From: Azorinus chamasolen
Lineage: Eukaryota > Mollusca > Bivalvia > Cardiida > Solecurtidae
Length of the DNA stretch: 64,000 nt
NCBI GenBank assembly: GCA_963576725.1
Contig: OY755242.1
Coordinates: 62,004,324-62,068,323, forward strand
Direction of reading: 5' to 3'
The notes beneath the pieces were generated by a model, which worked only from the letters and a program-made list of their open reading frames with translations, was not told the origin of the DNA and did not search any database. Of this stretch, positions 41,906 through 64,000 are shown one piece after another (within the stretch, counting starts at the first letter, position 1; every line of letters begins with the position of its first letter). Both the position numbers and the translations under genes were made by a program.

Positions 41906-41914
41906 TAATAAATC

Positions 41915-44900: not shown

Positions 44901-45352
44901 ACAGACTCACAAATAAAAGTAACTGGATTTCTGAATTTACCAGATTAAAGGCAGCAATTCCGAATGCCTGGAAAATCATTTTGAAATTAGAAGAATCCAT
45001 CAAAACACAAGTTAATATTAACAGAAACTCGGTTTTCGGTAAAAACTGTAATATCGCTAAATTAAATAACAAAAACATAAAGAGAAAATTTGTTGCAAAC
45101 AAATTTGAATCTCCATACATACACAAGTTCTGGGACGAAAAACTGAATAGAAAAGTCCAGTGGCATGAAGTCTACCACACAATGAATAATGTTTATATCG
45201 ATAACAGAATAAAAGAACTTAAATTCAAGCTTATTCATAAAAGAGTTCCCACTAATGAAAACCTTTACACGTGGAAACTAATACAAACGCCATTCTGCAA
45301 ACATTGTAATGCATTGATTATAAAGGTTATCAAGAAATTAATATTATTATAG
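41915..45352 (+). CDS. LINE ORF2: APE endonuclease - reverse transcriptase (L1/Tx1 clade)
   Basis: 1145 residues from the ATG at 41915. Residues 5-240 form an APE-type endonuclease: LNTQG (N12), QETH (E41), NIYAPN (Y114), GGDFND (D146, N148) and TDHLA (D233, H234). A linker with RSRIKFLEEGEKNTKYF (353-369) is a hallmark of L1/Tx1 proteins. Residues about 450-730 form the reverse transcriptase: PGLDGL, NWRPISLLN, FLDFKKAFD (D589), RGIRQGCPLS and QLADDTTLF (D695, D696). The C-terminal zinc motif begins (FCKHCN) but is cut by a small deletion or frameshift near 45310-45352, and the tail continues in another frame at 45361. Target-primed reverse transcription in the nucleus is the family role. 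This copy is probably inactive. Confidence 0.9.
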   Translation: MTEQHLHIISLNTQGLRDKSKRLRLNQWLIQQKTDIAFLQETHFSNDIIDNVANDFIDWNLYHSFGSSNSRGVSMVIHKELNVTVTDLNHDNDGRHLFMNVDTGDNTFSILNIYAPNDTKLRNIFLDNICTILKEHSLGVKIIGGDFNDVNSLKDRVSSSKKQQKISQSLTKLKNKNGLTDIWRYLHNELNQFTWRRKNGSEKSRIDFWLIDSNIIPLILSTDIRPAVIHSTDHLAISLKVKKPLKRGPGYWKLNNQHLEKDYCELITAIIHECNDLKLNDSLKWEICKHEIKEASNTYSKRKSRQRHNRLQHLEKQLKSLLNDTNVNEALVTELENEIKQIYDERATGAQIRSRIKFLEEGEKNTKYFLSLERSRQNRKTITSLLVNGQHITSIDELLKAETNFYENLYTSNGNQNDIQQYIDGTELETTLSNEDANICEGPITLAECEDALNRMKLNKSPGLDGLTVEFYIKFWPHISTMVFNSFLHSHQTGELSHSQKQSILSLLYKKGDPEKIENWRPISLLNIDYKILARVLAERLQKVLPKIISLDQQGYIKNRYIGYNIRQIQDIIDYTETLNIEGAMLFLDFKKAFDTIEWEFMYRVLRKFGFKDGFINWTKILYKNICASVTNNGWISNFFNISRGIRQGCPLSALLFIIVAEIMANKIKSCKDLKGIKVKNNDKTYHLKITQLADDTTLFLNNSEEIPTALQIIEEYGTYSGLKLNRNKTEGLLIGKLRSNTELLINGIKFSPIIKALGVYFGGEKDASNDINWREKIETCQKLINSWNQRKLTFYGKITIINSLLLPKFAFLIQTLPMPNNVLKQINSMFFSFLWGNKSEKIKRNTLIGNKEDGGLEIPDIEIYSKTLKLKWLKTLSSVVEANWKVIPNFFLNQYGDKLLILKMNIDSIKSLPAVRYNLPVFYKDIVNIFIKLNNSGPKSMPKSLYDIRTQVLWGNQYIKFKGKCLIFDSWIDSEIIFINDVIHNNGEIKESLINRLTNKSNWISEFTRLKAAIPNAWKIILKLEESIKTQVNINRNSVFGKNCNIAKLNNKNIKRKFVANKFESPYIHKFWDEKLNRKVQWHEVYHTMNNVYIDNRIKELKFKLIHKRVPTNENLYTWKLIQTPFCKHCNALIIKVIKKLILL

Positions 45353-46189: not shown

Positions 46190-47075
46190 TTCATACATTG
46201 AATCAGTAAATAAAAAGTTATTGTCCCGACAAGAAAATATGAAAAAGGGGAGTAACTCCAAAAATATTGATGCTAGAGTTATTGCCCTTGTGCATGACAC
46301 TACATCTCATCACGCTTGTTCCATATGAGAAGTTTCAAATCAATTGAACCAGTACATAAAGAGTAACTAACTGGACAAGAAAATATGAAAAGGGGAATAA
46401 CTCCAACAATATAGATGCTAGAGTTATGGCCCTTGTGCATGACACTATCCCTCATCATGCGTGTTCCATATGTGAAGTTTCAAATCAATTGAACCAGTAG
46501 AGAAAGAGTTATTGTCCGGACAAAAAAATATGAAAAAGGGGAATAACTCCAAAAATATTGATGCTATAATTATGGCCCTTGTGCATGACACTACTCCTGA
46601 TCATGCTTCTTCAATGTGTGAAGTTATAATGAATTTGGCCTAACTTTGTAGGAGATATTGCCCGGACACGAAGTGTGACAGACGGACTGACAAGAAAATA
46701 TGAAAAAGGGGAATAACTCCAAAAATATTGATGCTAGAGTTATGGCCCTTGTGTATGACACTACCCCTCATCATGATTGTTCCATATGTGAAGTTTCAAA
46801 TCAATTGAACCAATAGATAAAGAGTTATTGTCCGGACAAAAAAATATGTAAAAGGGGAATAACTCCAAAAATATTGATGCTAGAGTTATGACCCTTGTGC
46901 ATGACACTAGCCCTCATCATGCTTCTTCAATGTGTGAAGTTATAATTAATTTGGCTTAACTTTGTAGGAGATATGGCCCGGACAAGAAGCGTGACAGACG
47001 GACGGACAGACGGACGGACAGACGGACAGACGGACAGACGGAATCGAGCAAACCTATAGTCCCCCAACCGGTAAC
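46190..47075. mobile_element. Pearl-like tandem-repeat element
   Basis: Five to six ~155-bp units with AAAAAGGGGAATAACTCC, AATATTGATGCTAGAGTTATGG, CCCTTGTGCATGACACTA, CATCATGCTTGTTCCATATG and AGTTTCAAATCAATTGAACC. They end in a GACGGACAGACGGACGG tetranucleotide run and a TCCCCCAACCGGTAACCGGTGGGGGA hairpin. This is the pearl-type order of core repeats, microsatellite and hairpin end. Confidence 0.6.
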
Positions 47076-47111
47076 CGGTGGGGGACTAATAAACACACAA
47101 ACCCGTTCACC

Positions 47112-47510
47112 CAACGTTAATCATCCATCATTTATCTATCAAAGTATCTATTCACCCATTCATCTATTCCATCCATCTAATCATCTATCCATCCATCCGC
47201 ATCTATCCATCTATCCATTTATCCATCCATCATTCCACCCGTCCATCTATCCGCCCATCCATCAATCCATTCATCATGCATGCATGCATGCATGCACCCA
47301 CCAACCCACCCATCCATCCTTCCATCCATCTATACATCACCCATCCATCCATTCATCCGTTCATCCATCCATCCATCATCTATCCATCCATTCATCTATT
47401 CATCTATTCATTCATCCACCCATCCATACAAGCACCCACACATCCATCCATCTATCCAGCTTCCAGCCTTTTATTCAGCCATCTATCCATACACTCGACC
47501 ATCAATCAAT
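47112..47510. repeat. Imperfect ATCC microsatellite
   Basis: Long run of CATCCATC with interruptions, including a short (CATG)n. The proline/isoleucine/histidine-rich frames over it are artefacts. Confidence 0.9.
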
Positions 47511-47524
47511 CATACAGTTTAATG

Positions 47525-47580
47525 AATGTCAAAAGTAATGCAGAAAGCTCCTATTGCATTAAGCAACAACCTGCTTTTTA
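47525..47580. repeat. MITE family A fragment
   Basis: GTCAAAAGTAATGCAGAAAGCTCCTATTGCATTAAGCA, one core arm with most of the mirror deleted. Confidence 0.45.
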
Positions 47581-47804
47581 CAACTCATATATAATATAGG
47601 AAAAGCTGCTTAGCACATGTTCTACTGTACTGCAGTGGTTTGACTTCAGTCAACTATTACTTCTGAACACGGTGATAGTAACCGCTAAGGAAAGTAATCA
47701 AAATGTCAGCATATTTCATTTAGGTTTAGCCCGTATTAATTTGACAAGTTTAACATTTTAGCGATGCTTAGTAATTTCAATGTGGGAAGTGAGTGACATA
47801 TTGT

Positions 47805-47873
47805 TTGCAAACTGTATGTCTCAGATCAGAGCCCCTCTAGAGGGTCCTCTGATCAGGGTTTGCAATGTTTGTC
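47805..47873. mobile_element. MITE family B palindrome
   Basis: GCAAACTGTATGTCTCAGATCAGAGCCCCTC / GAGGGTCCTCTGATCAGGGTTTGCAATGTTTG. Confidence 0.55.
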
Positions 47874-48010
47874 ATTCAAAATCCTCTTACCAATCAAAGT
47901 ATTTCATACTTAATGGACTCTATAGTTGAATACTAATGACCTACAATAGTCTGCATACAGCCGCCATATTCTGAACAAACATTGGAGTATATAAAAGCAT
48001 GTGGTACTTT

Positions 48011-48240
48011 ACCCCTTTCCCTGACATTGGCACCTTTTGACGCCTCTGTAAAAGTCACCTTTGAAACAATTGTCATAAATAGAGCATTTACTCCATAGGA
48101 GCAAATACTTTATACATCATAATGGTTTCAAAACTACACAATACTACGTTTCTCCTTTTCTCTAGTTAATGCTCCTTTTCGGTAGATGTAGTCAAATATA
48201 TATGGTCTGAATATACCCTATGAGGGAATGATATAATGCA
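48011..48240. mobile_element. MITE family D, decayed copy
   Basis: ACCCCTTTCCCTGACATTGG, GAAACAATTGTCATAAATAGAGCATTTACTCC with mirror, and TATGAGGGAATGATATAA. Same order as the D copies but the TTAA ends are lost. Confidence 0.55.
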
Positions 48241-48464
48241 GGATGACAGTAATGCATCCCCTTAAGTCCAGAATAAGACTTATTTCGGGTGGTTGCTGAA
48301 GACAGGTTTCACCGTATTTTCATTTTGAATATGCAATATTTATAGGCTTAACATTAACGACAGGTCTTGGTCAAATAGCGCCGATATGCTTTCGGTGGTG
48401 AGCAGGAAAGGAACAGTATTGTCGAGGTTGAGTGTGTACGTATTTGTGCTCGTACTTTATTATA

Positions 48465-49715
48465 CCACCCTTTTGAAAAAATGGGGGTATATTGCTTTGC
48501 ACATGTTGGTCGGTCGGTCGGTCGGTCTGTCGGTAGATCGATGGTTTCCGAATGATAACTAACAAACGACTTGGCGCAGAATCTTCAAACTTGCTGTGGT
48601 GGTTGGTCATGACAACTAGATGACCCCTATTGTTTTGAGGTCACTAGGTCAAAGGTCAAGGTCACCATGACCTTAACTGGTTAAATGGTTTCCGATCAAT
48701 AACTGTTCAAGGGTTTAGCTTAGAATCTTCAAACTTACTGTGGTAGTTGGTCATGACCACTGAATGACTCCCATTGTTTTCGAGGTCACTAGGTCAAAGG
48801 TCAAGGTCACCATGATCTTAACTGGTAAAATGGTTTTTGGTCAATAACTGCTCAAAGGTTTGGCTTTGGATCTTCAAACTTGCTTAGGTGGTTGGTCATG
48901 ACAACTAAATGAGCCCTTTTGTTTTTGAGGTCACTAGGTCCAAGGTCAATGTCACATGACCTTAACTGATGAAATGGTTTCCGATAAATAACTGTTCAAG
49001 GGTTTGGCTTAGGATCTTCAAACTTGCTGTGGTGGTTGGTCATGACCACTAGATGACCCCTGTTGTTTTTGAGGTCAGTAGGTCAAAGGTCAAGGTCACC
49101 ATGACCTTAACTGGTGAAATGGTTTCCAATCAATAACTGCTCAAGGGTTTGGCTTAGGATCTTCAAACTTGCTGTGGTGGTTGGTCATGACCACTAGATG
49201 GCCTCTATTGTTTTCGAGGTCAGTGGGTCAAATGTCAAGATCACCATGACCTTAACTGGTGAAATGGTTTCCGATCAATAACTGCTCAAGGGTTTTGGCC
49301 TAGGATCTTCAAACTTGCTGTGGTGGTTGGTCATGACAATTTAATGACCCCTATTGTTTTTGAAGTCACTAGGTCAAAGGTCAAGGTCACCATGACCTTA
49401 ACTGATGAAATGGTTTCCGATAAATAACTGCTCAATGGTTTGGTTCGGGATCTTCAAACTTGCTGTGGTGGTTTGTCATGACCACTAGATGACCCCTATA
49501 GTGGTTCAGGTCAATAGGTCAAAGGTCATGGTTGCCATGACCTTAACTTATGAAATGTTTTTAGATCAATAAATGATCAGTGGTTTGGCTTAGGATCTTC
49601 AAAATTGCCGTGTTGATTAGTCATGACCACTAGATGACCTCGATAGTTGAGTTCACTAGATCAAAGGTCAGGGGGTCTGGGGGTATACATGTTTTACAAA
49701 CATCTCTTGTTTGTG
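48465..49715. mobile_element. Pearl-like tandem-repeat element
   Basis: Starts CCACCCTTTTGAAAAAATGGGGGTAT, then a GGTCGGTCGGTCGG run, then about seven ~150-bp units with TTAGGATCTTCAAACTTGC, GTGGTGGTTGGTCATGACCA, CTAGATGACCCCTATTG, GGTCAAAGGTCAAGGTCACC and AACTGGTGAAATGGTTTCCG. It ends GGGGGTATACATGTTTTACAAACATCTC. Pearl-type order. The AGGTCAAAGGTCA direct repeats look like nuclear-receptor half-sites; this is likely incidental. Confidence 0.65.
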
Positions 49716-49880
49716 CTTCCAATTGATGCGGACTTTCTTGAGGCATCTTCTGTCTGACTTCTGTTCTATTTTTACTCTGTCGTCTGCTAACTTTGTCGTC
49801 TGCTAACTTTGTCGTCTGCTATAAATTTTCATGTTAATTTATTTTCTTCATTTTTGTTTCAAAAACATAGTAACAGTAAT

Positions 49881-49942
49881 AAACAGTTTGGATCCTGATG
49901 AGACGCCGAGTTACTCGGCGTCTCATCTGGATCCAAACTGTT
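49881..49942. mobile_element. MITE family C palindrome, near-perfect
   Basis: AAACAGTTTGGATCCTGATGAGACGCCGAGT mirrored by ACTCGGCGTCTCATCTGGATCCAAACTGTTT with one mismatch. Confidence 0.65.
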
Positions 49943-50317
49943 TGCATAGGTAATCACAGATCCGGCATTGGCAGCGAAAAGGTTAATTATAGTTGTTAAT
50001 ATTATAATTTAGCATTGTGGTGTTGTCGAAGCAAGATAAAGACATTTGTTCATAATCATTTTGACAGAGTAGTGCAACAGACACGTACTGTTTATTCATA
50101 TACTGCACATAACTGTTCAACCCTCAGGTGTCATGTTTAACCTTTTCATCGTCAATGTCGCAAATTGCACCACGACAAATAGTGCAGCCCCAGACCAGAC
50201 GCCGCCTTTTCAACGTTTTCGTCTCAAACTCTATTTCTATATCTGTGTTTAATTCCTTTGAAAAGTGCATTCATTTATCTAATTTCTTAATTAGTGGTGT
50301 GGGAGACATATTGATTT

Positions 50318-51520
50318 ACTCCTTTCTATCTGTCTGTCTGTCACAAAATCTTGTCCGCTCCTTATTTTTAAAAGTTCAATCTTCAATCCAATCTTCATTA
50401 AACCTTATAAAAATGGTTAAAGCTATAGTATCTAGGTCAAGGCCGATATTCAGCAAGATTGTTTCAGGAACTGCACAGTTCTGGCCCTTGATTTATCCAA
50501 ATTTGGCCTTTTGAGCCTTGTCCGCTCTCTAAGTCAAAAATGTCTCGTCCAATCTCCATCAAACCTAATAAAATGTTTCTGGCTATAATATCTAGGCCAA
50601 GTTTAATATTCAGCAATTAGATTTATGGCCCTTGATTTGTCCCATTTTTTGCCTTTTTAGCATTGTCCACTCTCTAAGTCAAAAACAACTCATCCAATCT
50701 TCACCAAACCTTATAAAATTTTCATGGCTATAATATCTAGGCCAAGTTCAATATCCAGCAAGATTGTTTCAGGAACTTTAGAGTTATGGCCCTTGATTTG
50801 TCCCAGATTTTGCCTTTTTAGCCTTTTTAGCCTCGTCCTCTCCCTAAGTCAAAACTTCTCATCCAAATTCACCAAACCATATAAAAATGTGTATGGCTAT
50901 AATATCTAGTCCAAGTTCAATATCCAGCAAGATTGTTTCAGGAACTTTAGAGTTATGGCCCTTGATTTGTCCCAAAGTTTGCCTTTTTAGCCTTGTCACT
51001 CTCTAAGTAAAAAACGTCTCACCCAAACTTCACCAACCTTATAAAAATGTATGGCTATAATATCTAGGCAAAGTTGATATCCAGCAAGATTGTTTCAGGA
51101 ACTATAGAGTTATGATCCTTGATTTATCCAACTTTGGCCTTTTTAGCCTTGTCTGTTCTCTAAGTCATAAACGTCTCATCCAATCTTCACCAAACCTTAT
51201 AAAAATGTTTATGGCTATAATATCTAGGCCAAGTTGAATAACCAGCAAAATTGTTTTAGGAACTTTAGAGTTATGGCCCTTGAATAATGCTTATGGTTAT
51301 AATATCTAGGCCAAGTTCAATAACTAGCAATTTTGGAACAGGTACTTTAGAGTAACGGCCCTTGAATTGTTGAAAACTGAGCTTTTTTAGCTTTGTCTGC
51401 TCTCTTAAATAAAAAAGTCCGTACCCAGTTTCCAACAAACTTCATAAATATGCATTCAATCATTTTTGAGATAGGAGCAGGTGGGATACATATGTTTTTT
51501 TCTTAAAAACAAGCTCTAGT
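50318..51520. mobile_element. Pearl-like tandem-repeat element
   Basis: After a CTGTCTGTCTGTC run come about seven ~145-bp units with CTTGTCCGCTCTCTAAGTCA, AACGTCTCATCCAATCTTCA, CCAAACCTTATAAAAATG, GGCTATAATATCTAGGCCAA, CAGCAAGATTGTTTCAGGAA and GAGTTATGGCCCTTGATTTG. It ends near ACATATGTTTTTTTCTTAAAAACA. Same design as the two elements before it, with a different core sequence. Confidence 0.6.
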
Positions 51521-52942: not shown

Positions 52943-52947
52943 ACGGT

Positions 52948-53163
52948 ATAGTAAAATTACAACTCACCAGAGTCCAAAGTCGCTCCCAGCGGCCTGGCAC
53001 ATGGTCATAATAGTTAACTAACGGAGCTCAATAATTGTGCGTCTTGCGTCTTTCAGTTCTACGAATAATCTGGCGGGCGGAAGTGGAACTGTGGTCACGT
53101 GACCCTCGGTCTCGTCGGTCTCCCTATTCTCCGGGACCTCTAAAAGATCTCGGTTTCACTACA
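52948..53163 (-). repeat. 3' LTR (216 bp)
   Basis: In element sense it runs from TGTAGTGAAACCGAG to GTAATTTTACTAT. It contains the 12-bp palindrome GGTCACGTGACC (an E-box) and a perfect splice-donor word CTG/GTGAGT near its 3' end. I see no difference from the other LTR. Confidence 0.92.
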
Positions 53164-53173
53164 TTCCTCCCCG
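53164..53173 (-). other. Polypurine tract
   Basis: In element sense CGGGGAGGAA directly precedes the 3' LTR, the expected plus-strand primer site. Confidence 0.75.
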
Positions 53174-53223
53174 TTTTATAGGAGTGTTGCTCACATCCAA
53201 AAATGAAAGCTATTCTTCTGCAT

Positions 53224-53383
53224 GGATTTCAGGTCAATCTAGAAATCCAACATAATTCTCAGCTAAAACTAGAGAATATTAAATATCTTAATAAAAGTTC
53301 TCAGATTCCACTAGAGAAACTATAGTCTACCCCTTTCAGCTCTTAGCTATTACAGTATTTGTTCTCAGCTGTCTCTAGAGAAC
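53224..53383 (-). ncRNA. Hairpin cluster in the 3' UTR of the Gypsy element
   Basis: Four short inverted repeats with a common loop on the plus strand, AG...CTA: GGATTTC/GAAATCC (53224-53248), ATTCTC/GAGAAT (53255-53277), GTTCTC/GAGAAAC (53297-53320) and GTTCTC/GAGAAC (53361-53383). Stem sequences differ while pairing is kept. They resemble the hairpins in the pol-TatD spacer and leader. Confidence 0.65.
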
Positions 53384-53396
53384 CTACAGGTCATAT

Positions 53397-56300
53397 TTAT
53401 ACGGTATGACATCCGTATAATTTACGGCCGTTCTGCTCGGTGGCCTTCAGTACGGGCTCTATCGACATCATCCTGATGTATGCCACCTTTGCAGCCACGT
53501 CACCGATGAACGCAGGGGTGTTGATCACCTGGTCGGAATGGACAGGTAAATATGGAGAGTCCGTTTCGATAAGGAGTCTATCTAGTGGGACTCTATTTAG
53601 TGCATTCCTCTGGTCGACGTTGAAATGACATGTCAGACCAGTAAAGCCGAAGTAGCAGTTGCTAAATGCACTACTCCATGCTCTATAGGTGGCTACATTT
53701 CCATTAAAACAATGCAGATGTATCCGCTGGTAAGGTGAGCAGTGCTTCTTTACCAGTTCTAAGCACCTGGCATAAGCTCGGGTTCCAAGCGGATCCTTGT
53801 TTCTATGGCCTCGTACGTGTAAGACTAGTACTCTTCCGAGACCACAGATAGGCAGAACCTTTTCCAAAAGTTTCTCCTGCGCTGGCCAATTTCTTTCAGG
53901 GACGGTTTGATCCAGTCCCACTTCTCCCAGCGCTGCTACTCTTGGGTTCGCCAATAGACCTTGCATCTGTTTCCATTGCGGCTCACTGAATTGCCCTGCT
54001 TTCTTAGGATGTACCCCAACGGCTACTCTCCAGTTAGGGTTTTCAGGCAATTTAACCTCGCTAAACTCTTCAGGGTCGCAATAGTTGACAACTCCACCTG
54101 TAACTCCTACTTTATGAGTTGGCAACCGTCCAGCTGGCAAATTGAGAGCATCTACTGGTGTCTCGACGGGATCCCCGGTCTGTTGCCAGTTCAGCCTGTT
54201 GAGGTGGAAATGACTGTCAAAGGCTGTTGAGTAGGATGAATCCACTTCTATTTGGCGGTTTGGTCTAGGTGGAGGTTGAGCAGTTAATGCTGGTTCTCGG
54301 GCCACGTCGGCATAGGACTTCTTTTTGCTCCTGGTTACTGTAGTCCAGTTATCATCTAGGACTACCCCCGAAGCCAATGGGGTTTCCTCCAAGGAGCTAA
54401 TAACCACTGGGTCAGGTCGAGTTTCACTATCCTGGCCCACAGTTGGTTCCACCGTTGGAATAGGAGGAACCTCATCTATTGCCATCGCCGACTCCTCTAT
54501 GGATGGAGTTGCTACATACACGGGCACTTCTGATGTGGCCGGGCAAGACACTGGGGGGTCTACTGCCCTCACTGTAGAGGTGAAAACCATCTCAGGAATA
54601 CCAGACTCCATCTCATACTCTTCCTCCTCAAATATTGATTCCAAGGGCAACAGTCGTCTCGGTTGTCCAGAGCTAAATTGTCCTTCTGGTTCCAGAGACT
54701 CATACTGTGCTGATTGGTACGGTAGAGCAAACTCGTCTTCCTCAAACACTGGTTCCAAGGGCAGTGATCGTCTTGGTTGTCCAGAACTGAATCTTCCCAA
54801 AGACTCATACTGCGCTGGTTGAACAATAGATCCTTCTTCAGGTTCAATGTGGGCATCACAATGTGCTTGGAAAGCAGTCTGTTGCTCAGGTGAAAGGAGA
54901 TTATAGAGGAAAGAAATACATCTCCAATGAATGAGACACGCAGGCGAGTTAACCGGTTGCAGAGTGAATTCCAGGTTAAAATCGTTTCTGCCTGTCAGAT
55001 ATATATGCATTCTCCTCATCGCCTCCTCTATTTCAGGCGAGATGTTGTGTCCCTCATACAAATCCCATCTTGTGTTTACAAAATTAACCAAATTTTGTAA
55101 AGTGGCTCCTTCTCCCAATAAGGCACTAGCAAGGAAGTTTAACCCGGCTACACGTCCAGGGTCTCGCCTCTCTTCTTCTGGATCATCCGCAACCGACCAG
55201 ATAGTAAATGCTGCCGGAAGATGATGATAGACGTGCCACTTCATCTTAGCCGAAGAATGGTCACATTCATTTATTGGACACACTCGTCTGGACTTCTTGG
55301 GTGGTCGTGGAGTTGAGCTCATACCAGTTTCTGCTGTCCGTTTTCTGGTAATATCAGAACTGGTGCACTCCACCGTACGCTCCTCTTTTCTCAGGACAAC
55401 GGTTAGATCCTCAATCCTAGACAATCTGGGTCTTTGCGAGGACGGCTGAGACCAGTCTCTCATACTCAGACTTCTAGTTGGCCGAGACTCGTTCATGTGT
55501 GGAGACGGATATGTCCAGTCCCCTCTGTGAGAGTCCCTAGATGTCGAGGTGTCTTCCACGGAGGACGGTTGTTTCCAGTCGCTCCTATAAAAGGTCCTCG
55601 AAGTGACAGTTGAGGTATCCTGTCTGTGCCGGTCCGAACTATGCCTGTGACGCTTGGCAGAACTCCTAGCTCGCCTTGGACGTCTGTCAGGACTTGTACG
55701 TCTATCAGGACTAGTACGTCTGGTTCGCCTGTCAGGGCTAACTGTAGTCCTTTGCCTTCGGCGTCTGTTAGGACTACCCGTAGTTCGCCTTGATCTGCTG
55801 GCAGAACTAGAGTCAGTAGCTCGCCTTGAACTTCCGGCAGAACTAGAATCATTGGACCTTCCTGGCACATAACCTAGGCTCAATAGTCCTCTAGCCGCTC
55901 TTCTTGGTGATCTTCCCAAGACTTGACGTCGATCTCCAGAGTCATTGCTGCCAGTTACAGTAACAGTTGGACGAGTCACTGTAACAGATGCTCCAGCACC
56001 TTCTCCCCCCTCCTCAAAATGGTGTACCGGGACATTCTGTCGTATGTCACCGCTTCCTAAGGGGTTGTATTCCGGAGCTTGTCGACTGGTAGGAACTCGA
56101 ATATTCCTGCTTGGGTCCGGATGGGGTAAATTCCTCACAATCCAGGTTTCCGAAAACAGAAGAGTGGCTTCCCGTTGAAGAAGGTGTATCCACCGACGAT
56201 TATCTAACTCCACGGCAACCTGGTACTGTTTCTGTATCAGTTCCATGATACTGTCGTGGCTTAAGTCAGTGGCAAAACCCAATTCTTGCACAAGGAAACG

Positions 56301-56429
56301 GGGTTCCAATAAGGTTCTGGTCATGGTATTCAGGTTGATCTTCTCTTCTATTGTAACCCTGAATACATTACCAGCAACATTCTCTCCCATCCAGCTTCTC
56401 CTAGGGCTGTCATTGTCAGAACTATCCAT
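53397..56429 (-). CDS. Third ORF of Gypsy element: SR-rich, zinc-finger-like protein with C-terminal TatD nuclease domain
   Basis: I take the ATG at 56429; an upstream TTG leaves the frame open two codons further, and the residue numbers below count from it. The product has about 1010 residues. An N-terminal ~110-residue helical part is followed by an Arg/Ser-rich stretch (about 175-280, with repeated SPDRR). Next come a C386-x4-C391-x9-H401-x3-H405 zinc-finger-like site, a helical part (410-530), acidic repeats, and NWTTVTRSKKK (696-706). Residues 740-1008 are a TatD-family metal-dependent hydrolase: HFH (H742, H744), VGVHP, GEVGLD (E838), VLHVRG (H873), LHCFNG (H908) and ETDSPYL (D959), so every metal ligand is present. 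Known relatives are 3'-5' exonucleases/DNases. It lies downstream of pol, where retroviruses keep env, and is probably expressed from a spliced RNA (inference). Its role in the element is unknown. Confidence 0.88.
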   Translation of the reverse strand: MDSSDNDSPRRSWMGENVAGNVFRVTIEEKINLNTMTRTLLEPRFLVQELGFATDLSHDSIMELIQKQYQVAVELDNRRWIHLLQREATLLFSETWIVRNLPHPDPSRNIRVPTSRQAPEYNPLGSGDIRQNVPVHHFEEGGEGAGASVTVTRPTVTVTGSNDSGDRRQVLGRSPRRAARGLLSLGYVPGRSNDSSSAGSSRRATDSSSASRSRRTTGSPNRRRRQRTTVSPDRRTRRTSPDRRTSPDRRPRRARSSAKRHRHSSDRHRQDTSTVTSRTFYRSDWKQPSSVEDTSTSRDSHRGDWTYPSPHMNESRPTRSLSMRDWSQPSSQRPRLSRIEDLTVVLRKEERTVECTSSDITRKRTAETGMSSTPRPPKKSRRVCPINECDHSSAKMKWHVYHHLPAAFTIWSVADDPEEERRDPGRVAGLNFLASALLGEGATLQNLVNFVNTRWDLYEGHNISPEIEEAMRRMHIYLTGRNDFNLEFTLQPVNSPACLIHWRCISFLYNLLSPEQQTAFQAHCDAHIEPEEGSIVQPAQYESLGRFSSGQPRRSLPLEPVFEEDEFALPYQSAQYESLEPEGQFSSGQPRRLLPLESIFEEEEYEMESGIPEMVFTSTVRAVDPPVSCPATSEVPVYVATPSIEESAMAIDEVPPIPTVEPTVGQDSETRPDPVVISSLEETPLASGVVLDDNWTTVTRSKKKSYADVAREPALTAQPPPRPNRQIEVDSSYSTAFDSHFHLNRLNWQQTGDPVETPVDALNLPAGRLPTHKVGVTGGVVNYCDPEEFSEVKLPENPNWRVAVGVHPKKAGQFSEPQWKQMQGLLANPRVAALGEVGLDQTVPERNWPAQEKLLEKVLPICGLGRVLVLHVRGHRNKDPLGTRAYARCLELVKKHCSPYQRIHLHCFNGNVATYRAWSSAFSNCYFGFTGLTCHFNVDQRNALNRVPLDRLLIETDSPYLPVHSDQVINTPAFIGDVAAKVAYIRMMSIEPVLKATEQNGRKLYGCHTV

Positions 56430-56434
56430 TTTCA

Positions 56435-56697
56435 ATTTTCGGCTTTTACCAGAAAATCGCGCTTATTAGTTCGACACTATTCGGAAGAAAGCTCTTCGGC
56501 TATCCCAGAAGAACTTCAATAACATATAACATTACCTATCAGAGTCTCTCGGATTTCACCAGAGAAACACTTGTATATATTCAAATATTATTAATAACCA
56601 ATTTTCCGGTTTGGACCAGGAAAATAACAATATAGTGAATATACTTATCTTAACTATAAAAAGACTCTGTGTATTTTCCGGCTTCACCCAGGAAAAT
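56435..56697 (-). ncRNA. Array of five small hairpins between pol and the TatD ORF
   Basis: On the plus strand, each has a stem, then GG...CCA in the loop, then the mirrored stem: ATTTTC/GAAAAT (56435-56457), GCTCTTC/GAAGAAC (56491-56514), GTCTCTC/GAGAAAC (56544-56568), ATTTTCC/GGAAAAT (56601-56625) and ATTTTCC/GGAAAAT (56673-56697). Loops are 10-11 bases. The stems vary between hairpins but pairing is kept, apart from single mismatches in two. The first overlaps the start of the ORF. In RNA sense the loop reads UGG...CC. Function unknown. Confidence 0.75.
56471..56490 (-). promoter_or_regulatory. Candidate splice acceptor for the TatD ORF
   Basis: In element sense CTTTCTTCCGAATAG/TGTC is a plausible acceptor about 48 bases before the ATG at 56429. 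Joined to the donor in the 5' LTR it would give a subgenomic mRNA. Confidence 0.3.
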
Positions 56698-56750
56698 GTA
56701 TCAACACCTACAAAGGAAAAAATAATGATAATGAATTAGTAATAATGACA

Positions 56751-59700
56751 TTACTTTGAGGCTACCCTGCACAATGGACAATAATACTTAGAAATGGATT
56801 CCGCCTTGTCTTCTGTAACGCGCACACATACACCGTGGTACCATTCCTGACATTTGTCGCATTGTATCATAAACTCGCCAGAGTCGGGTTTACGACATAA
56901 ACAATAGAGTTCATTTTGACAATTAACCATTGTTCCAGACTCTCTTAGTTTAACAATCCAACTGGGTAGATCCCTCGTCTTATCAAGTTTTAATTTATCA
57001 TGATTCAAAGTAACTATTCTGTTCTTTAACTGAACCCTGTACAGATATGGGGACAACTTCTTGACAATTACACCCGGCCCCTTCCAGGCTGGAAGTAGCT
57101 TTTTACATTTTCCCTTCACTGAGGCAGAATTCAAGAAACAAACAACATCACCTTCTTCATAGGTTTTCAGTAGCACCCTGACATCATGATCTTTCTTCAT
57201 CCGTTTGAGATTTGTCTTTAGTTGATTTCTGGCTATATTATGAGCGGTTTTAATAGATTCTTCCAGCTCAGTAACATAGTCTGCCAGCTGTCCAGTTTCC
57301 TTACGCTTTATAGGAAACATCAAGTCAGCGGGTTGATTAACTTCTCTTCCCAGCATCAACCTATTTGGGGTATAACCCGTTTGTCTGTTTACTGCAGATC
57401 TCAAAGCTCCAGCAATCTGCGGCAAATTCTTATCCCACTGATGCTGATTGGACCCTATATAACATCGCACGGCATCCATGAGGGTTCTGTTATATCGTTC
57501 AACTTGCCCATTCGCCGAAGGACGATATGCAGTAGTTCTTGCCTTGTGGATTTTCAAAAGATCACAAATTTTTACAAACAGTTTACTCTCGAAATTGCTT
57601 CCTTGATCGGTGAAGATCTGAAATGGGCACCCAAATCTAGAGAAGAACTCACCGACTGCTGCTTGTGCAGTTCTCTCAGCTGTTTGACTGGGTAAAGGAA
57701 TACATTCAACCCACTTCGTAAATTGATCGACCATCATTAAAATGTAGAGGTTACCAGATTCAGTTTTAGGTAGAGGTCCTAGAAAATCTAAATGTACTCT
57801 CTCCATTGGTACACCTGCGTGATAAACTGTCATGGGACACCTAGAATGTTTTAATGCCTTCTTATTGTGATTGCACTGTTCACATGAATTGACATAATCT
57901 ACCACATCCTTGGACATTTTGTACCAAAAATATTTCTCATTAACCCTAGCCTTGGTTCTAGCAATCCCTTGATGACCAGCGGTGGGGACATCATGAACAG
58001 ATTGCAATAGCTGTATTTTCAAGGCTTGTGGAATCACAAGTAGATCCGGACCATCCTCATTTTTCTTCCAGAGTAAATTATCTTTCGTGTGAAAAACATC
58101 TCGGTTTATCCAGAGATATTTCTGAGCAGGACTTGCTAACATTAATTCTTCTTCTGAAACTTCTTTACCATCCTTTAACCAGGAAATCAAGGCTAACAAC
58201 TCTTGATCTTTCCGGAGTTCGGCTTCTATATCGAATGGAATTAGAAAAGTGTCATTTTTGCTCACATTATACACTGCTGGTGTCACCGTTTTCTCTTCTA
58301 TGAATATGGGTCCACCTGGTGAGCACACAATGTCCAGATGGGCAGCTCCCTGCTCAGGTTCACATCCGCAATAACCATATAAATCCCAGGGCCAAATGTT
58401 GCAGAAGTCGGCTTTCCCAGACTCCTGTGACATTGCACAAAGCCCAACTTGCTTCGATAACGGCACTACGTCATCGACTTGTTCAACAAAACTGGACCAA
58501 TTTTTGTGAGCTTTCTTGCAATAACTGCAACCACCACATGGCAAAGTCTCTAAGTCAAAATCTGTAGTCCCGAGTTTATAATTCTTGCACACAGGAACAG
58601 GATCACTGTCAGTTCGTCTAGAGAGTGCATCCGCATTTCCATGATCTTTACCAGGTCTATGAACTACAGTAAGGTTGTATTGGCTTAGCTCTTCAAGCCA
58701 ACGAGCTATTTGACCTTGAGGTTCCTTAAATCTAAGAAGCCATGTTAAGCTGCTGTGATCTGTTCTCACAACAAAAGGTCTTCCTAAAAGGTAATGCCTA
58801 TACTGCCTGATGAATTTTATTACTGCCAACAGTTCTTTTCTAGTTACGCAGTACTTCAGTTGTTCCCTTGATAAGGCTACACTTCCATAAGAAATAACCT
58901 TTTCTTCACCATGTTGTATTTGGATCAACTCCGCTCCTATGGTTTTCTCAGAAGCGTCGGTATCCAGAATAAATGGATCTGTTGCATTCGGTAGGGCCAA
59001 CACTGGCGGAGATACCAATGCAGCTTTGATTTTATCAAAAGCTTCCTGCTCTTCTTCTCCCCATCTAAATTGGTTTTTTCCAGTCAGTTTGTAAAGTGCT
59101 GTCGCAAGGAATGCATAGTTTTTAATGAAGGCACGATGATAATTGGCCAGACCCAGAAATTGCTCTACCTCTCTTTTCGTAGTTGGCGTTTTCCACTGTT
59201 GCACCGCTTCCATGTGCTCATTGCTAATTTCGACTCCCTCTTCACTAACCCAACGTCCAAGGAATTCCACTCGTAGTTGAAACAGAATGCACTTCTTGGG
59301 CTTAAGCTTGAGTTGGTATTCTCGGAAACGCTCAAACACTCCTCGGAGATTAACCAGATGGTCTTTGAAAGTTGATCCCAAAACCAAAATATCGTCAAGA
59401 AAAGCGAGTACTACACTCCAGTTAAGGCCACGAAGAACCAAATTCATAACTCTCGAAAATGTACTTGGTGCGTTGCATAATCCAAATGGCATGCGTATGA
59501 ATTCAAATAAGCCATATTTTGTCATAAACGCACTCTTCTTTATGTCTTCAGGAGCAATTTTGATTTGCCAATAAGCTGAGTTAGCGTCCAATTTGGAGAA
59601 CCATTGGTTACCAACTAAGGTGTCCATACAATCTTCTACCATTGGCAGCGGAAAAACGTCTTTTGTAGTGACAGTATTAAGTGCCCGGTAGTCTACACAC

Positions 59701-60938
59701 CATCGCACGCTTCCATTTCTCTTTCTGATAAGAACAGGTGCCGAGGCCCAGTCTGAATTAGACGGTTGTATAACTTTTGCCTTCAGCATTTTTTGTAAGA
59801 CGGATTCTTCCTCTTTGGCAAAGCATAGTGGTGTTCTTCTAAATCTTTGTTTAATAGGAGTTGCTGACCCGGTTTCAATTTTATGTTCCATTGCTGTAAA
59901 ATTCCCAAGGTCAAAATCATCTTGTGCAAACACATCTTGGTATTCAATTAGTAGTTCAGTCAACTCTGCAGTTTCATATGTAGATAAATTAATGACGGAA
60001 CGTTCCAATAAATCTTTCAAATGCTTCGGAACTTCTTGATTTGAAGATGCCTCACAGTCTTGGGGAATCGGTTCATTGTCATCAGTCCCAGATTCCAAAC
60101 CTGTAACTGAGATAGCAGCTTCAACTTCTTCAGCATTACCAATGAATTTGCCTTTCTTTAAGTTTACATATTTTTCTGTCGGATTGACCAGACAGACTAC
60201 AGGTTTCAAAGCAGATGAATGTAGTGTCTTTGGAATCAATACTCTAAGGTCATCAACAGGTTCCAATACGAAATCATCCAGATTGTTGTCCAATCGGCAT
60301 GGGACAAGCTTTACAGTATTCGGAGGAACAACAACATGATTCCTTAAAGTCACACGGGCCACTCTCAATGGAAACGGTTCTTTTCCAGTTTCCAGCTGTA
60401 TATTCTCATTACCAAATGACAATTTGCTTTCTTTGATGTTGATAGTGACTTCCCATTTACGCATCAGGTCAATTCCTAACAACATATCGTCTTCAATGGG
60501 AGCAACATAAACCATTTCTTGAAATTGCTTGTTGCCAATGGAAATAGATACAGGCCCTGCTATATAGCTTTCCATCTTCATGTCTCTTCCAGCGGTATTA
60601 AGGATAACTCTTCTAATCTTCGTTGGTTTCTTCTCCATTTGACTAACCACACGATCAGAAACTATGGTAACCTCAGCCGCGGTGTCTATTACTGCATGAA
60701 GATCAACATTCTCTACGCTGACCGGCATTTTAAACATGGAATTGGAACGCATCATACAAACTGTTATGGTCTCGGCTTCTTCCAAAGAACCATTTTCAGT
60801 TGAATGTTGTGATCCATCCTCATTTCTTCCAACCAGTTCTTCATCCTCATCTTCTGGCTCTTCATGAGTATGCATAAGCGTCTCACAACGATTGTCCCCC
60901 TTTTGTGAAGGAACACAAACTGTTGCAAAACCCGGCAT
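56751..60938 (-). CDS. pol: Gypsy Pol: protease - RT - RNase H - integrase - PHD finger
   Basis: 1395 residues from the ATG at 60938, but the frame is open upstream into gag, so it is probably made by -1 frameshifting. Retroviral-type protease, about 75-165 (DTAAE at 85, LLGID at 153). Reverse transcriptase, about 375-560 ([15 protein letters not shown] with D451; FLDDILV with D515-D516). RNase H, about 650-775 (D659, E702, D727, D770). A cysteine-rich linker ([11 protein letters not shown]). Integrase with HHCC zinc site (H982, H989, C1019, C1022) and DDE triad D1051, D1111, E1147 at the usual 35-residue spacing. A GPY/F-like module follows, about 1262-1320. Residues 1345-1391 are a PHD finger with complete C4HC3 (C1346, C1348, C1360, C1363, H1368, C1371, C1387, C1390). 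All catalytic residues are present; no break seen. Confidence 0.93.
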
Positions 60939-60954
60939 CTCATTATCTTGATCT

Positions 60955-61013
60955 GGGTCTAGTGAATGTCGGATCGACGGTTGACCCTGTCCTCCGATCC
61001 ATGGTCGTTTAAA
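60955..61013 (-). promoter_or_regulatory. -1 ribosomal frameshift signal at the gag-pol junction
   Basis: In element sense the heptamer U UUA AAC lies at 61013-61007 in the gag frame with the right phase (codons Leu-Asn), a canonical slippery site. After six bases (GACCAT) comes a 6-bp stem GGATCG (61000-60995) / CGATCC (60976-60971). The loop holds GGGTC (60987-60983), which can pair with GACCC (60959-60955) downstream, giving a possible pseudoknot. After a -1 slip the pol frame is open without a stop through to the ATG at 60938 and beyond; the gag stop is at 60961-60959. Confidence 0.75.
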
Positions 61014-61714
61014 GTACCATCCTCTTCAACCAGACTTACTTTTAACTTGGGACATTCCCTCTTGAAATGACCAACTTCACCGCATTCAAAGCAGGTACTA
61101 TTTTGCGGCGTCCTTCCCCTTGATGGTGAGGGTGAACGAGAACGAGACTTCACAACTCTAGTCAACAGTTCTTCTATCCTGCCGAACTTCTGGTCTAACC
61201 TATTGATTCTGTCATCCATCCTATGATCTAACCTATTTATTCGGTCATCCATATTCTGATCTAAACTTTTCATCTTCAGGTCTAAACCAGCAAATTCATC
61301 TTCCAAAGTCTTGGTCCTTTTCTCCAACTCAGACTTGGTGTCGGTGAATCTAACCTTCGGTGGAGGAGATGAGGCTCGGTTTCTATTTCCAGCTGACATA
61401 GCCAGAACCTCATAATCCTGCTGCCACCTGTCATCATAATCAGAATCTACAAACTGAATATTCCTTCGTGCATTAGGAATATTCCTGCCATAGATTATCT
61501 TATTATTATGCTGGTGCCATTTTATAATATCCAGGGCTTGTTCCACTGTTCTCGGTTTCGAGTTAATGGCGTAAAGTCCGGCTTCTTTATCACTTAGGCC
61601 TTGACAGAACTTAAACACTGCCTGCTTCTGAATGTAGTCTTCTGGCAGGTTTTTGAAAGCAGTAGTCGCCAGGGTTACTACTCGATCAGCCCATTCAACT
61701 ACTTTTTCTTCTAC
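60959..61714 (-). CDS. gag: Gypsy Gag, C-terminal part (capsid end, coiled coil, zinc knuckle)
   Basis: An open frame on the minus strand from about 61714 to the TAG at 60959. It starts with [19 protein letters not shown] sequence, typical of the end of a Gypsy capsid, then [12 protein letters not shown] and [11 protein letters not shown] coiled coil with two DDRINRLD repeats follows, then an [11 protein letters not shown] stretch, and a CCHC knuckle [14 protein letters not shown]. There is no ATG at its start because it is the out-of-frame continuation of the N-terminal Gag ORF after an internal deletion. The knuckle is expected to bind genomic RNA during particle assembly. Confidence 0.8.
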
Positions 61715-62510
61715 CCTCCAAACTCCAGCAAAGGTAATTCTTTCTTAATTTGGCATTCCACCCTTGTTCATCAGCATAAGTGGTGAATTTGGCAAAGAAG
61801 GGTTTCCATTTGGAACTGCCATCGAAAGCAATGGTTCTCGGCATGTTCACAACTTTATCCGGTTTCGTTCTTCCAGGATATTGTGGTGCTGCCATTTGTG
61901 CAGGTTGTCTAGCACAATTCATAGTATAATCATACCCTATGCCTTGATTATACAAAGGCTGGGTTCCATAACCGTAGTGTGGCGATTGAGGCGCATACGG
62001 ATTTGGCGGTGGGTATCTTGGAAATGGTGGAAAAGATACCGGTGGTGGTGTCATTGCTGTCGGACCAGACATACTTGGTAATGCCATTGACGGTAGTGAC
62101 ATATGTGGCGATGCCATCGGTGGTGGACCAGACAAGTGTGTCGACGCCATCGATGGTGGGCATGACATATGCGGCGATGCCATTGACGGTAGGCCGGACA
62201 TATGTGGTGACGCCATTGATGATAGACCGGACATGTATGCTGTTGCCATAGCTCCAGCTGGATCTGCACTGGTTGGTGGAATGGTTGCATAAGACCTATC
62301 ATGCTTTCCCCCCGGTACAAAAACAGAAAAGTCTAGCAAAGGAACAAGCATCTCTGCACCTCTCAAGTATGGTAAATTCAAAATGTGGTTCTCATTGAGA
62401 TTGCCTACAAGATCCCTTAGATCTATGATCTGCTCAGCCAATCTACGTCCAACACCAGGTAATGTCGTTAATTCACGGCACCCACAGTAATTTATTTTTA
62501 CTCGCGACAT
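61695..62510 (-). CDS. gag: Gypsy Gag, N-terminal part with helix-hairpin-helix motif (truncated by deletion)
   Basis: 271 residues from the ATG at 62510. Residues 3-50 (VKINYCGCRELTTLPGVGRR, then LAEQIIDLRD, a short linker and LNLPYLRG) match the pattern of the ComEA-type helix-hairpin-helix: a LPGVG hairpin at 17-21 and a second, weaker helix pair. Residues about 92-150 are imperfect 10-12-residue units of the MASPHMSGLPS type, then a P/Y-rich spacer (155-215). The capsid start follows (RTIAFDGSSKWKPFFAKF, 225-242). After SLEG the frame runs into a stop (61697-61695), while capsid-like sequence restarts in another frame. Several tens of capsid residues appear to be missing. Confidence 0.75.
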   Translation of the reverse strand: MSRVKINYCGCRELTTLPGVGRRLAEQIIDLRDLVGNLNENHILNLPYLRGAEMLVPLLDFSVFVPGGKHDRSYATIPPTSADPAGAMATAYMSGLSSMASPHMSGLPSMASPHMSCPPSMASTHLSGPPPMASPHMSLPSMALPSMSGPTAMTPPPVSFPPFPRYPPPNPYAPQSPHYGYGTQPLYNQGIGYDYTMNCARQPAQMAAPQYPGRTKPDKVVNMPRTIAFDGSSKWKPFFAKFTTYADEQGWNAKLRKNYLCWSLEGRRKSS

Positions 62511-62580
62511 TGTGCAAGGTAACCTTTACTTAAGATCACAAAATAAAACTACTGATTTCATGCAAATTTATACCTATATC

Positions 62581-62679
62581 TGTTCGGTTTACCAGAACAA
62601 TAAGATAACAAAATCAGTTATATTTCTGAAGAAATTCCAAAAAATGAAATTAAATAATAGTTCGGATATGTTCCAGAAC
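62581..62679 (-). ncRNA. Two hairpins in the Gypsy leader
   Basis: TGTTC/GAACA with loop GGTTTACCA (62581-62599) and GTTC/GAAC with loop GGATATGTTCCA (62660-62679), plus strand. Same GG...CCA loop as the pol-TatD spacer array. Confidence 0.6.
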
Positions 62680-62699
62680 AATATTTAGATTTCAAATTT

Positions 62700-63234
62700 A
62701 TTAAAGTTACAAGAAAGAAATGTACACCTTCAATGTGTTCATTAATTAAATGTAATTAATTTACTATAGACAGACCTGTTCACCTTTAATGATAGAACAT
62801 TAGTCCACTATTTCTAATTAGAAAATTAATATATGTGTTCTAAAGAAAATAAAGTTATTGTTATTGCCAAAATTGTAATAAATGAAATAGAATTATACAT
62901 ACAAATTCCTGAAAGAGAGCGGTTATGTTAATAACATGCACTCCAATTTCAAATACACAGACAAATTGCCAAAAAAATTATGTATGTAATTTATTTTTAT
63001 TTTTAGTAAACCTTAGTTCCTAAAAAGTGAAATGAATTCTCTTTGAACAAATTCAAAATTAGTTGTATAAAACAACCAGTGTACTGGTTTGACACTGAAT
63101 TTCAATGTAAATATGATTTTTTTATTTACTGTTTTAATAGAAAAATAGAATTTACTGTATCTTTCAATCTTGGATAACCCAAAGACTGTGCAATATCAGC
63201 TTATTCTAGATATTGTGCAAAATATACAAAAACT
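62700..63234. other. Gypsy leader, AT-rich part
   Basis: AT-rich non-coding leader between the 5' LTR and gag. No other element was recognised here. Confidence 0.5.
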
Positions 63235-63549
63235 CCGATTTAAATACTCCGATTCGGGTCCCACCCAAAACCGAAAGTAGACACGTATAACGGTATCACC
63301 GATACCACGTGGAAAATAACAAATAAAGATTCGGTCCAACTGAAACCGAAAATAAACACACGTGTAACGGTCCCACCGATACGACGTGAAAATATACAAA
63401 TGTACTCCGATTTGAGTCTCACCCAAAACCGAAAGTAAACAAACACGTGTAACGGTCCCACCGATACCACGTGGAATTATACAAATAAAGATTCGGTCCC
63501 ACCAGAACCTTAAAACATGTATAGACCCTAATTATCAGTCCCACTGATA
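63235..63549 (-). repeat. Tandem repeats in the Gypsy leader
   Basis: About 3.3 imperfect units of 75-83 bp (plus strand: CGATTCGGGTCCCACCCAAA, ACCGAAAGTAAACA, ACGTGTAACGGTCCCACCGA, TACCACGTGG). Several sub-segments fold: TTCGG/CCGAA, GGTATC/GATACC, TTC/GAA with GG...CCA loop (63491-63508), TATCAG/CTGATA (63533-63549). CACGTG recurs in two units. Confidence 0.65.
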
Positions 63550-63696
63550 CCTTAGAGGTCGATAATGTGCAGGTTTTTAAGCCAAAAGACCAAATTTACA
63601 TCTTCGAACCACGAGGTTTCATTTTCTCAATGGCAGGCCGAGTGAAATTTTGACTGGCAATTGCTCAAATTCTAGCACAAATACAGTTCAATTGGT

Positions 63697-63709
63697 GCTC
63701 GCAGCGCCA
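63697..63709 (-). other. Primer-binding site
   Basis: In element sense TGGCGCTGCGAGC starts two bases after the 5' LTR. It is complementary to a tRNA 3' end ...GCUCGCAGCGCCA, which fits animal serine tRNAs (inference). Confidence 0.65.
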
Positions 63710-63711
63710 AT

Positions 63712-63927
63712 ATAGTAAAATTACAACTCACCAGAGTCCAAAGTCGCTCCCAGCGGCCTGGCACATGGTCATAATAGTTAACTAACGGAGCTCAATAATT
63801 GTGCGTCTTGCGTCTTTCAGTTCTACGAATAATCTGGCGGGCGGAAGTGGAACTGTGGTCACGTGACCCTCGGTCTCGTCGGTCTCCCTATTCTCCGGGA
63901 CCTCTAAAAGATCTCGGTTTCACTACA
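63712..63927 (-). repeat. 5' LTR (216 bp)
   Basis: I see no difference from 52948-53163. It is the promoter LTR in element sense. It is followed on the plus strand by ACGGT, the target duplication. Confidence 0.92.
63726..63731 (-). promoter_or_regulatory. Candidate splice donor in the 5' LTR
   Basis: In element sense GACTCTG/GTGAGTTG is close to the ideal donor. It lies 14 bases before the LTR end, suitable for making a spliced mRNA for the third ORF. Confidence 0.4.
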
Positions 63928-64000
63928 ACGGTTGTACATAAACTACATTTAATTTCGTACGTGACATTTATGCAATTTATGCATAGTGATACTAAGCAGG

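Follow-up and report, generated by a model that had tools for sequence, protein, structure and literature searches.

Why would a long terminal repeat (LTR) retrotransposon carry a nuclease of the TatD family? The question is raised by a 64,000-nucleotide stretch of the genome of the bivalve Azorinus chamasolen (GenBank assembly GCA_963576725.1, contig OY755242.1, positions 62,004,324 to 62,068,323; this whole stretch is called the window), the minus strand of which carries one Gypsy LTR retrotransposon of 10,981 bp at 52947-63927. Within this element, gag precedes pol and pol precedes a third gene, open reading frame 3 (ORF3), in 5' to 3' order. We consider it very probable, as far as identity, inheritance, and expression are concerned, that ORF3 is the third gene of an old Gypsy lineage in which gag, a pol ending in a PHD finger, and a zinc-finger-TatD gene have been inherited together. 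The evidence is its position inside the LTRs, its presence in many families, a TatD fold with its metal ligands, purifying selection, a history correlated with that of pol, and a predicted splice acceptor at the pol-ORF3 junction. The features that place ORF3 in the element are these:

63928-63931: target-site duplication ACGG, read from the sequence
63711-63927, minus strand: 5' LTR, 217 bp, 100% identical to 52947-53163, starting TGTAGTG on the minus strand
56751-61025, minus strand: pol, with protease, reverse transcriptase (RT), RNase H, integrase, and a C-terminal PHD finger (ORF and Pfam); overlaps the second gag frame
53397-56429, minus strand: ORF3, 1010 codons from ATG to stop (ORF listing; open frame 53397-56462)
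53412-54221, minus strand: TatD nuclease domain of ORF3 (Pfam and structure match)
52947-53163, minus strand: 3' LTR, 217 bp, direct repeat of the 5' LTR
52943-52946: target-site duplication ACGG, read from the sequence

A first-pass annotation, made from the letters alone, had placed a ~1010-codon ORF downstream of an intact Gypsy pol and inside the LTRs and target duplication. This placement holds: the pol frame is open throughout (1424 aa), the LTRs are identical, ACGG lies outside both ends, and the first ATG of the ORF3 frame is at 56429, which gives the 1010 codons. The TatD motifs it had quoted from the last ~270 residues are likewise all present (AFDSHF, GEVGLD, LHVRG, LHCFNG, and ETDSPYL at frame residues 747, 846, 881, 916, and 966), and the Pfam TatD_DNase profile matched residues 748-1017 over its full length (model positions 1-253; 137.5 bits, E = 6.9e-40). 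The best relative of the domain among solved sequences was E. coli YcfH (4.2e-17), followed more weakly by human TATDN3 and TATDN1; TATDN2 was not among the matches of ORF3 to solved sequences. In NCBIfam, ORF3 matched the YchF/TatD subfamily and, weakly, QatD, every one under its curated cut-off (109 bits versus 206 for TIGR00010; 57 bits versus 230, far below, for QatD). In an AlphaFold2 model of the last 637 residues, the TatD part had a predicted local distance difference test score (pLDDT) of 88-99 in blocks of ten. The first 17 PDB matches of this model (target-normalized TM scores of 0.55-0.84) included 12 named TatD or TATDN, two entries of the S. aureus YcfH-type deoxyribonuclease, and three with general names (3e2v twice and 3gg7). 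Profile and structure searches agree that the C-terminal part of ORF3, as modeled, has a TatD fold, and a mere coincidence of motifs was rejected on these two matches. The TatD profile did not reject ORF3, nor were its homologs limited to single-copy host genes.

The metal ligands are conserved. In an alignment of 41 ORF3s, composed of the window copy and 40 chosen from 84 database hits, both histidines of HxH, both later histidines, and the aspartate were invariant in all 41, and the glutamate was kept in at least 90%. Of the first 68 database hits, 66 rows were read, and 65 of these retain the glutamate, two histidines, and the aspartate; the trimmed pieces used here exclude the HxH columns, and the set shares members with the 41-ORF3 alignment. 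In P0050, the ligand glutamate is replaced by alanine. Judged by its HxH motif, the ORF3 TatD is of group II, to which TATDN2, TATDN3, YcfH, and YjjV are assigned (PMC10085689). It is conceivable that the fold is kept mainly for nucleic acid binding or a structural role and not for catalysis, since some related frames have lost ligands (P0050 and L029, described below), but this is very unlikely given ligands that are invariant or nearly so in both sets.

A TatD search of the window's own assembly (1.72 Gb) gave 160 matches, and a search with the integrase C terminus plus PHD finger (IN-C/PHD) gave 150. Among the TatD matches listed, 126 rows were kept and 24 were dropped, namely 19 pieces of a deletion derivative (14 with TatD residues 1-70 and 5 with residues 212-267) and 5 other short pieces. 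For 100 of the 126 rows kept, an IN-C/PHD match lies 0-6 kb upstream on the same strand, and not one of the 126 is paired within 6 kb in any other order or strand. For each of five further families (L031 to L035), ~12 kb was read as two pieces that were not joined. They all have the same gag, pol, ORF3 order as the window, with TatDs 51%, 46%, 36%, 37%, and 34% identical to that of the window, respectively. Their LTR matches span 198-270 bp, all 100% identical, and their 4-bp duplications are, in order, GAAT, GAAT, AGTG, TATA, and CAAC. The pol frame is interrupted in L032 (stop) and L034 (frame change). Pfam detected the PHD finger in all three pols scanned (L031, L033, and L035) and TatD in all four ORF3s scanned; L032 and L034 have IN-C/PHD matches in the genome search. 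Many copies, and all six families read, have a homolog located after Gypsy pol and before the LTR, a placement for which the first-pass annotation had proposed a test.

Both LTRs and a short target-site duplication were found in each of the six families, and the protease-RT-RNase H-integrase order was found by Pfam in the window pol, L031, L033, and L035; the pol frame is -1 relative to gag in the window and L031 to L035, by arithmetic on frame coordinates. The element lineage is a member of the Metaviridae (Ty3/Gypsy), old yet recently mobile. Five of the 49 unpaired PHD rows were followed downstream, and three had TatD; 10 of the 49, these three included, have a TatD row in the Pfam genome search, which brings the total to 111 of 150 (hand-matched listings). 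The notion that unpaired PHD matches represent TatD-free families was rejected on the three of five followed. One locus stands apart: at C16:14427041 (L029:1492-3732, minus strand), a TatD-like frame of 1417 aa has no IN-C/PHD match within 6 kb, and its ligands are changed from HxH to YxH, from GE to GG, and from ETD to ETG. We regard L029 as a candidate for a catalytically dead, domesticated ORF3 relative.

The TatD domain has evolved under constraint. The ratio of nonsynonymous to synonymous substitution rates (dN/dS) was 0.00-0.37 in pairs where it could be computed, below the value of 1 that the first-pass annotation had set as a test; the stops present in L015, L016, and C16a were disregarded, the number of changes was small in several pairs, and five more distant pairs had an infinite dS. 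The values include 0.14 for L018 at a dS of 0.60 and 0.135 for L035/L037 at a saturated dS of 1.8. In three pairs, IN-C/PHD gave 0.06, 0.13, and 0.41, versus 0.13-0.14, 0.22, and 0.16 for TatD; since these values are comparable, the two regions are under similar constraint. Tree distances for TatD and IN-C/PHD were correlated across 14 non-redundant families (Mantel r = 0.57, p = 1e-4), and in a 21-row set, 11 of 18 splits were common to the two trees. LTR elements are known to capture host genes, and ORF3 might have been a host TatD transcript swept into one element and carried passively. This is extremely improbable, because 14 non-redundant families, the correlated history, the low dN/dS, a conserved domain upstream of TatD, and occurrence in two phyla all argue against it; passive transduction was rejected on these grounds together with the gene order and the LTRs and duplications in many families.

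The second phylum emerged from protein databases. One search returned 84 proteins, the named ones including bivalve hits in Mya, Dreissena, Saccostrea, Pinctada, Crassostrea/Magallana, and Argopecten and echinoderm hits in Acanthaster, Diadema, and Strongylocentrotus. In Acanthaster P0012, integrase, a partial PHD finger, and TatD occur in one predicted protein; its zinc-finger-like and HWR stretches were seen by reading, the zinc finger having escaped the pattern search. New among the best 120 of 5,493 entries of a second search were Mytilus, Pecten, Mizuhopecten, Ruditapes, Lytechinus, and the hemichordate Ptychodera; a third search, made with an alignment, added only 9 new ids. The families read share no more than 62% identity with two entries named Mercenaria mercenaria. 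The similarity of P0116, a bivalve entry bearing the name TATDN2, to element ORF3s extends beyond the TatD domain (35% over 419 aa to L033). Pattern searches of viral contigs and genome contigs revealed no relative with the patterns used. ORF3-like proteins are also filed as "TatD family hydrolase" in Sedimenticola/Thiodiazotropha metagenome-assembled genomes (P0007, P0009-P0011, P0015, P0096, P0104, and P0127); these are probably host retrotransposon DNA in symbiont bins.

In a TatD tree that leaves out 16 of 213 database rows (short pieces) and the verified eukaryotic TATDN1-3, element TatDs fell together in a group that makes up 147 of the 197 rows, at a modest support of 0.71. A second Gypsy lineage with a TatD ORF3 lies outside this group. 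By hand count, 37 of 150 matches listed in the Pfam genome search are in frames of 474-487 aa that are absent from the rows of the first TatD search, and three loci of this lineage were fetched (L081, L082, and L083). A pol piece upstream of its TatD ORF3 is 41% identical to the window pol, and the second-lineage pol pieces scanned gave no PHD match. L081/L084 has a 274-bp identical LTR match; the LTRs were read with TG...CA ends and TAAT flanking both sides, and by eye its ORF3 shows a comparable pattern, C..C..H..HIPWY, and also an unscored pyrimidine-tract acceptor ahead of the ATG. The TatDs of L081 and L083 are 24-32% identical to the first lineage and group in the tree with P0211, P0072, and P0163 (supports of 0.87-0.95). 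Both one old capture and two captures are possible.

Upstream of TatD, the six-family alignment of ORF3 runs from a weakly conserved N terminus through a variable SR/RR-rich stretch to a conserved domain:

55323-55925 (approximate limits), minus strand: SR/RR-rich low-complexity region, by reading; poorly conserved between families
54843-55280, minus strand: zinc-finger pattern (C-x4-C-x9-H-x3-H-LP-x2-F) and helical domain with NSPAxLIHWR (alignment and model; no Pfam match)

The zinc-finger-like C/H site noted in the first pass is indeed present, as one end of a conserved predicted domain of ~150 residues, with the pattern at its start and NSPAxLIHWR near its end. Folded alone, this domain gave a confident predicted model (pLDDT 93.8; predicted TM score 0.87). 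A Pfam search gave no match for it, and nothing significant was found among solved sequences (best E = 0.29). By pattern search, the zinc finger occurs in 53 of the 84 database hits, 51 of these within the best 68. TatD was the sole Pfam domain in the ORF3s scanned, none of which had an envelope domain, and the idea of ORF3 as an env gene was rejected on this result.

How might a gene in this position be expressed? Between the pol end and the ORF3 ATG, all six families have a pyrimidine-rich predicted 3' splice site, which in the window is as follows:

56708-56741, minus strand: predicted 3' splice site between the pol stop and ORF3 (TACTAAT...TTTTTTCCTTTGTAG), home-made score

The predicted acceptor lies 0-6 nt from the ATG in five families and 278 nt from it in the window. 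By the home-made score, single p values were 0.0007-0.07, with two of six above 0.05, and the Fisher combined p was 2e-8. The window site occurs in five of six other copies of its family compared, and the sixth lacks that stretch. The L032 acceptor fits the second ATG of the frame, the first having no such site, and L037 and L041 have a predicted acceptor too. Single good donor candidates exist in several leaders, and one lies inside gag in L034. The sequence pattern suggests that ORF3 is made from an env-like spliced RNA.

Several observations weigh against a third gene inherited and expressed in this way. The donor sites lack a shared pattern across families. Twenty-six of the 126 TatD rows have no IN-C/PHD match, among them window-family copies (e.g., C14, C4, and C7:31086752), and two of the five PHD matches followed, L039 and L040, have no TatD downstream. 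Seven of the 18 splits disagree between the TatD and IN-C/PHD trees, and the window family has a different sister in each; a degree of exchange or poor resolution therefore remains. L036 (C18), a window-related deletion derivative, lacks the middle of ORF3, including the TatD core, as well as most of pol. TatD residues 1-70 of this derivative are found at 14 loci (L036 and 13 others), five of which run straight into residues 212-267. The derivative was probably mobilized in trans, and the fact that it spread despite lacking both most of pol and the TatD core points to pol and ORF3 being able to work in trans; since a gag-bearing derivative has spread in this form, TatD is not needed in cis.

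The rest of the element in the window comprises the following features:

63694-63710, minus strand: primer-binding-site-like stretch TTGGCGCTGCGAGCACC beside the 5' LTR, read from the sequence
61695-62525, minus strand: first part of gag; its N terminus has a helix-hairpin-helix-like motif, matched weakly by HHH_3 in the related copy L036
60959-61744, minus strand: second part of gag, in another frame, with a CCHC zinc knuckle (by reading; Pfam match in L036)

The stretch beside the 5' LTR is a putative primer-binding site, so named from its position and sequence and not from a tRNA match. The window gag consists of two overlapping frames, and because of this split, the copy is partly broken and not intact throughout. 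In L036, gag is a single frame of 568 codons, in which the helix-hairpin-helix match falls under its curated cut-off. The gags of L036, L033, and L035 gave matches to an N-terminal helix-hairpin-helix (above the cut-off in L033 only), a PNMA-like capsid, and a zinc knuckle. Elsewhere in the window, a 1146-codon plus-strand frame at 41912-45352 is endonuclease/RT-like and was labeled by reading, not by search, as a non-LTR element of the long interspersed nuclear element type, and 46243-51403 holds direct repeats of several families, many at a spacing of ~145-160 bp.

What could the nuclease do? The first-pass annotation had speculated on processing of cDNA ends, removal of unintegrated DNA, and countering of a host nuclease or sensor. 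Its description of TatD enzymes as cellular 3'-5' DNases was too narrow. Known TatDs are described as 3'-5' exonucleases and apurinic/apyrimidinic (AP) endonucleases, with human TATDN1 and TATDN3 and the E. coli TatDs cutting AP sites (PMC10085689), and human TATDN2 is reported to be an R-loop RNase, a structure-specific 3' RNA exo- and endonuclease (PMC10707325). The proposed role builds on the Mg-dependent 3'-5' exonuclease, AP endonuclease, or RNase activity of such relatives. ORF3 would be made from a spliced subgenomic RNA, as is retroviral env; its basic SR-rich and zinc-finger parts would bring it to element nucleic acid or chromatin; and its group II TatD would trim or repair new cDNA (3' ends, abasic or deaminated sites) or clear leftover RNA before integrase joining. 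Processing or repair of cDNA as the main role is the simplest reading, and we hold it tentatively, with an RNase role and counter-defence as close rivals. A broader account, which in our judgment falls somewhat short of probable, is that an ancient Gypsy ancestor captured TatD once, before the split between PHD and PHD-less lineages, and that the gene persisted in bivalves and echinoderms alike as an essential third gene expressed by splicing. The life cycle would then depend on an encoded cDNA repair or RNA-processing nuclease guided by a new zinc-finger/helical domain, and at least one catalytically broken copy may have been domesticated by the host.

The RNA of the window family has a feature that bears on the RNase alternative:

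56433-56697, minus strand: five tandem bulged-U hairpins in the predicted ORF3 5' untranslated region (UTR), from a hairpin scan

In all, 18 hairpin sites of the form stem-(bulged U)-GG-loop-CC-stem are spread on the minus strand from 53899 to 63511, across leader, gag, pol, and ORF3. There are 18 sites in sense and 1 in antisense, against a mean of 0.37 and a maximum of 2 in 30 dinucleotide shuffles, and no hairpins with another base at the bulge position occur in the window element. The five 5' UTR hairpins are largely kept in five sister copies, and L036 has nine sites; base pairs are lost in relatives at the 54040 stem and at a few more, which counts against conservation. The array is possibly a distributed protein-binding or packaging signal. 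Five other TatD families have 0-2 sites each, and the array was rejected as a general feature of TatD elements, being confined to the window family; no motif was apparent by eye in an unbiased hairpin count in the other families. With these sense-strand hairpins, the basic SR-rich region, the HxH motif common to TATDN2 and TATDN3 (PMC10085689), and the RNA activities of TATDN2 (PMC10707325), ORF3 could be mainly a TATDN2-like RNase that cuts structured RNA or the RNA of RNA:DNA hybrids and so removes genomic RNA or regulates element RNA. We consider this rather doubtful: pol already has an RNase H, the array is absent from the five other families, and the closest solved relative is bacterial YcfH, not a human TATDN, with no match to TATDN2.

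ORF3 could instead disarm the host response to cDNA, for instance if it acted on the abasic or deaminated sites that AID/APOBEC-like enzymes leave behind, or if it eliminated DNA that the host senses. TatDs have a conserved AP endonuclease activity (PMC10085689), AID/APOBEC-like deaminases have been reported in invertebrates (PMC5956068), and TatD acts in immunity elsewhere, with ORF3 matching the anti-phage QatD, albeit far below the curated cut-off. An AP endonuclease alone, however, would break cDNA rather than save it, and we regard counter-defence as unlikely, if not much more so than the RNase alternative.

Whatever its activity, the TatD ORF3 appears to be a functional component of the element rather than a chance passenger. 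It represents another kind of enzymatic third gene for LTR retrotransposons, beside env and the DEDDy and GDSL ORF3s of rotifers. With insertions that are recent in one genome and relatives spread over two phyla, the lineage offers a natural system in which to study how a nuclease of the DNA repair type might serve reverse transcription or act against host defence. In addition, among bivalve and echinoderm gene models, many that go by the name of TatD, YcfH-like, or TATDN2 may belong to retrotransposons, an origin that matters for studies of gene family expansion.

The first-pass statement that no described Gypsy family encodes a TatD stands within the open-licence papers searched, where TatD was not found tied to an LTR element (one of the searches covering the best 20 of 1,309 papers); Repbase was outside this search. 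Cellular group II TatDs (TATDN2, TATDN3, and YcfH) have the HxH motif, ligands, and fold in common with ORF3 (PMC10085689, PMC10707325), whereas the ORF3 TatD belongs to a retrotransposon and is attached to an N-terminal part with SR-rich, zinc-finger, and helical regions. Another TatD-family nuclease in genetic conflict is QatD of the Qat anti-phage system, but it is bacterial, and ORF3 reaches only 57 of the 230 bits of its NCBIfam cut-off. The mollusc C-clade and Steamer elements are also bivalve Gypsy LTR elements; the main text of the paper describing them uses neither the word TatD nor nuclease (PMC8905726). Errantivirus/Gypsy and Anakin elements have captured a third gene too, but there it is described as env (PMC12440569), unlike the nuclease here, which has no Pfam envelope domain. 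The nearest precedent is the bdelloid LTR elements Juno and Vesta, reported to have captured a cellular 3'-5' exonuclease as an ORF3 after pol, with catalytic residues kept and a Cys-His-Cys motif noted in some (PMC5408684). Their ORF3 has an RNase D-like DEDDy fold, in contrast to the TatD barrel here, and the extra ORF3s are described as family specific and missing from the earliest branches, with DEDDy gained at least twice (PMC5408684); the TatD ORF3, unlike these, is found in many families and in two phyla.

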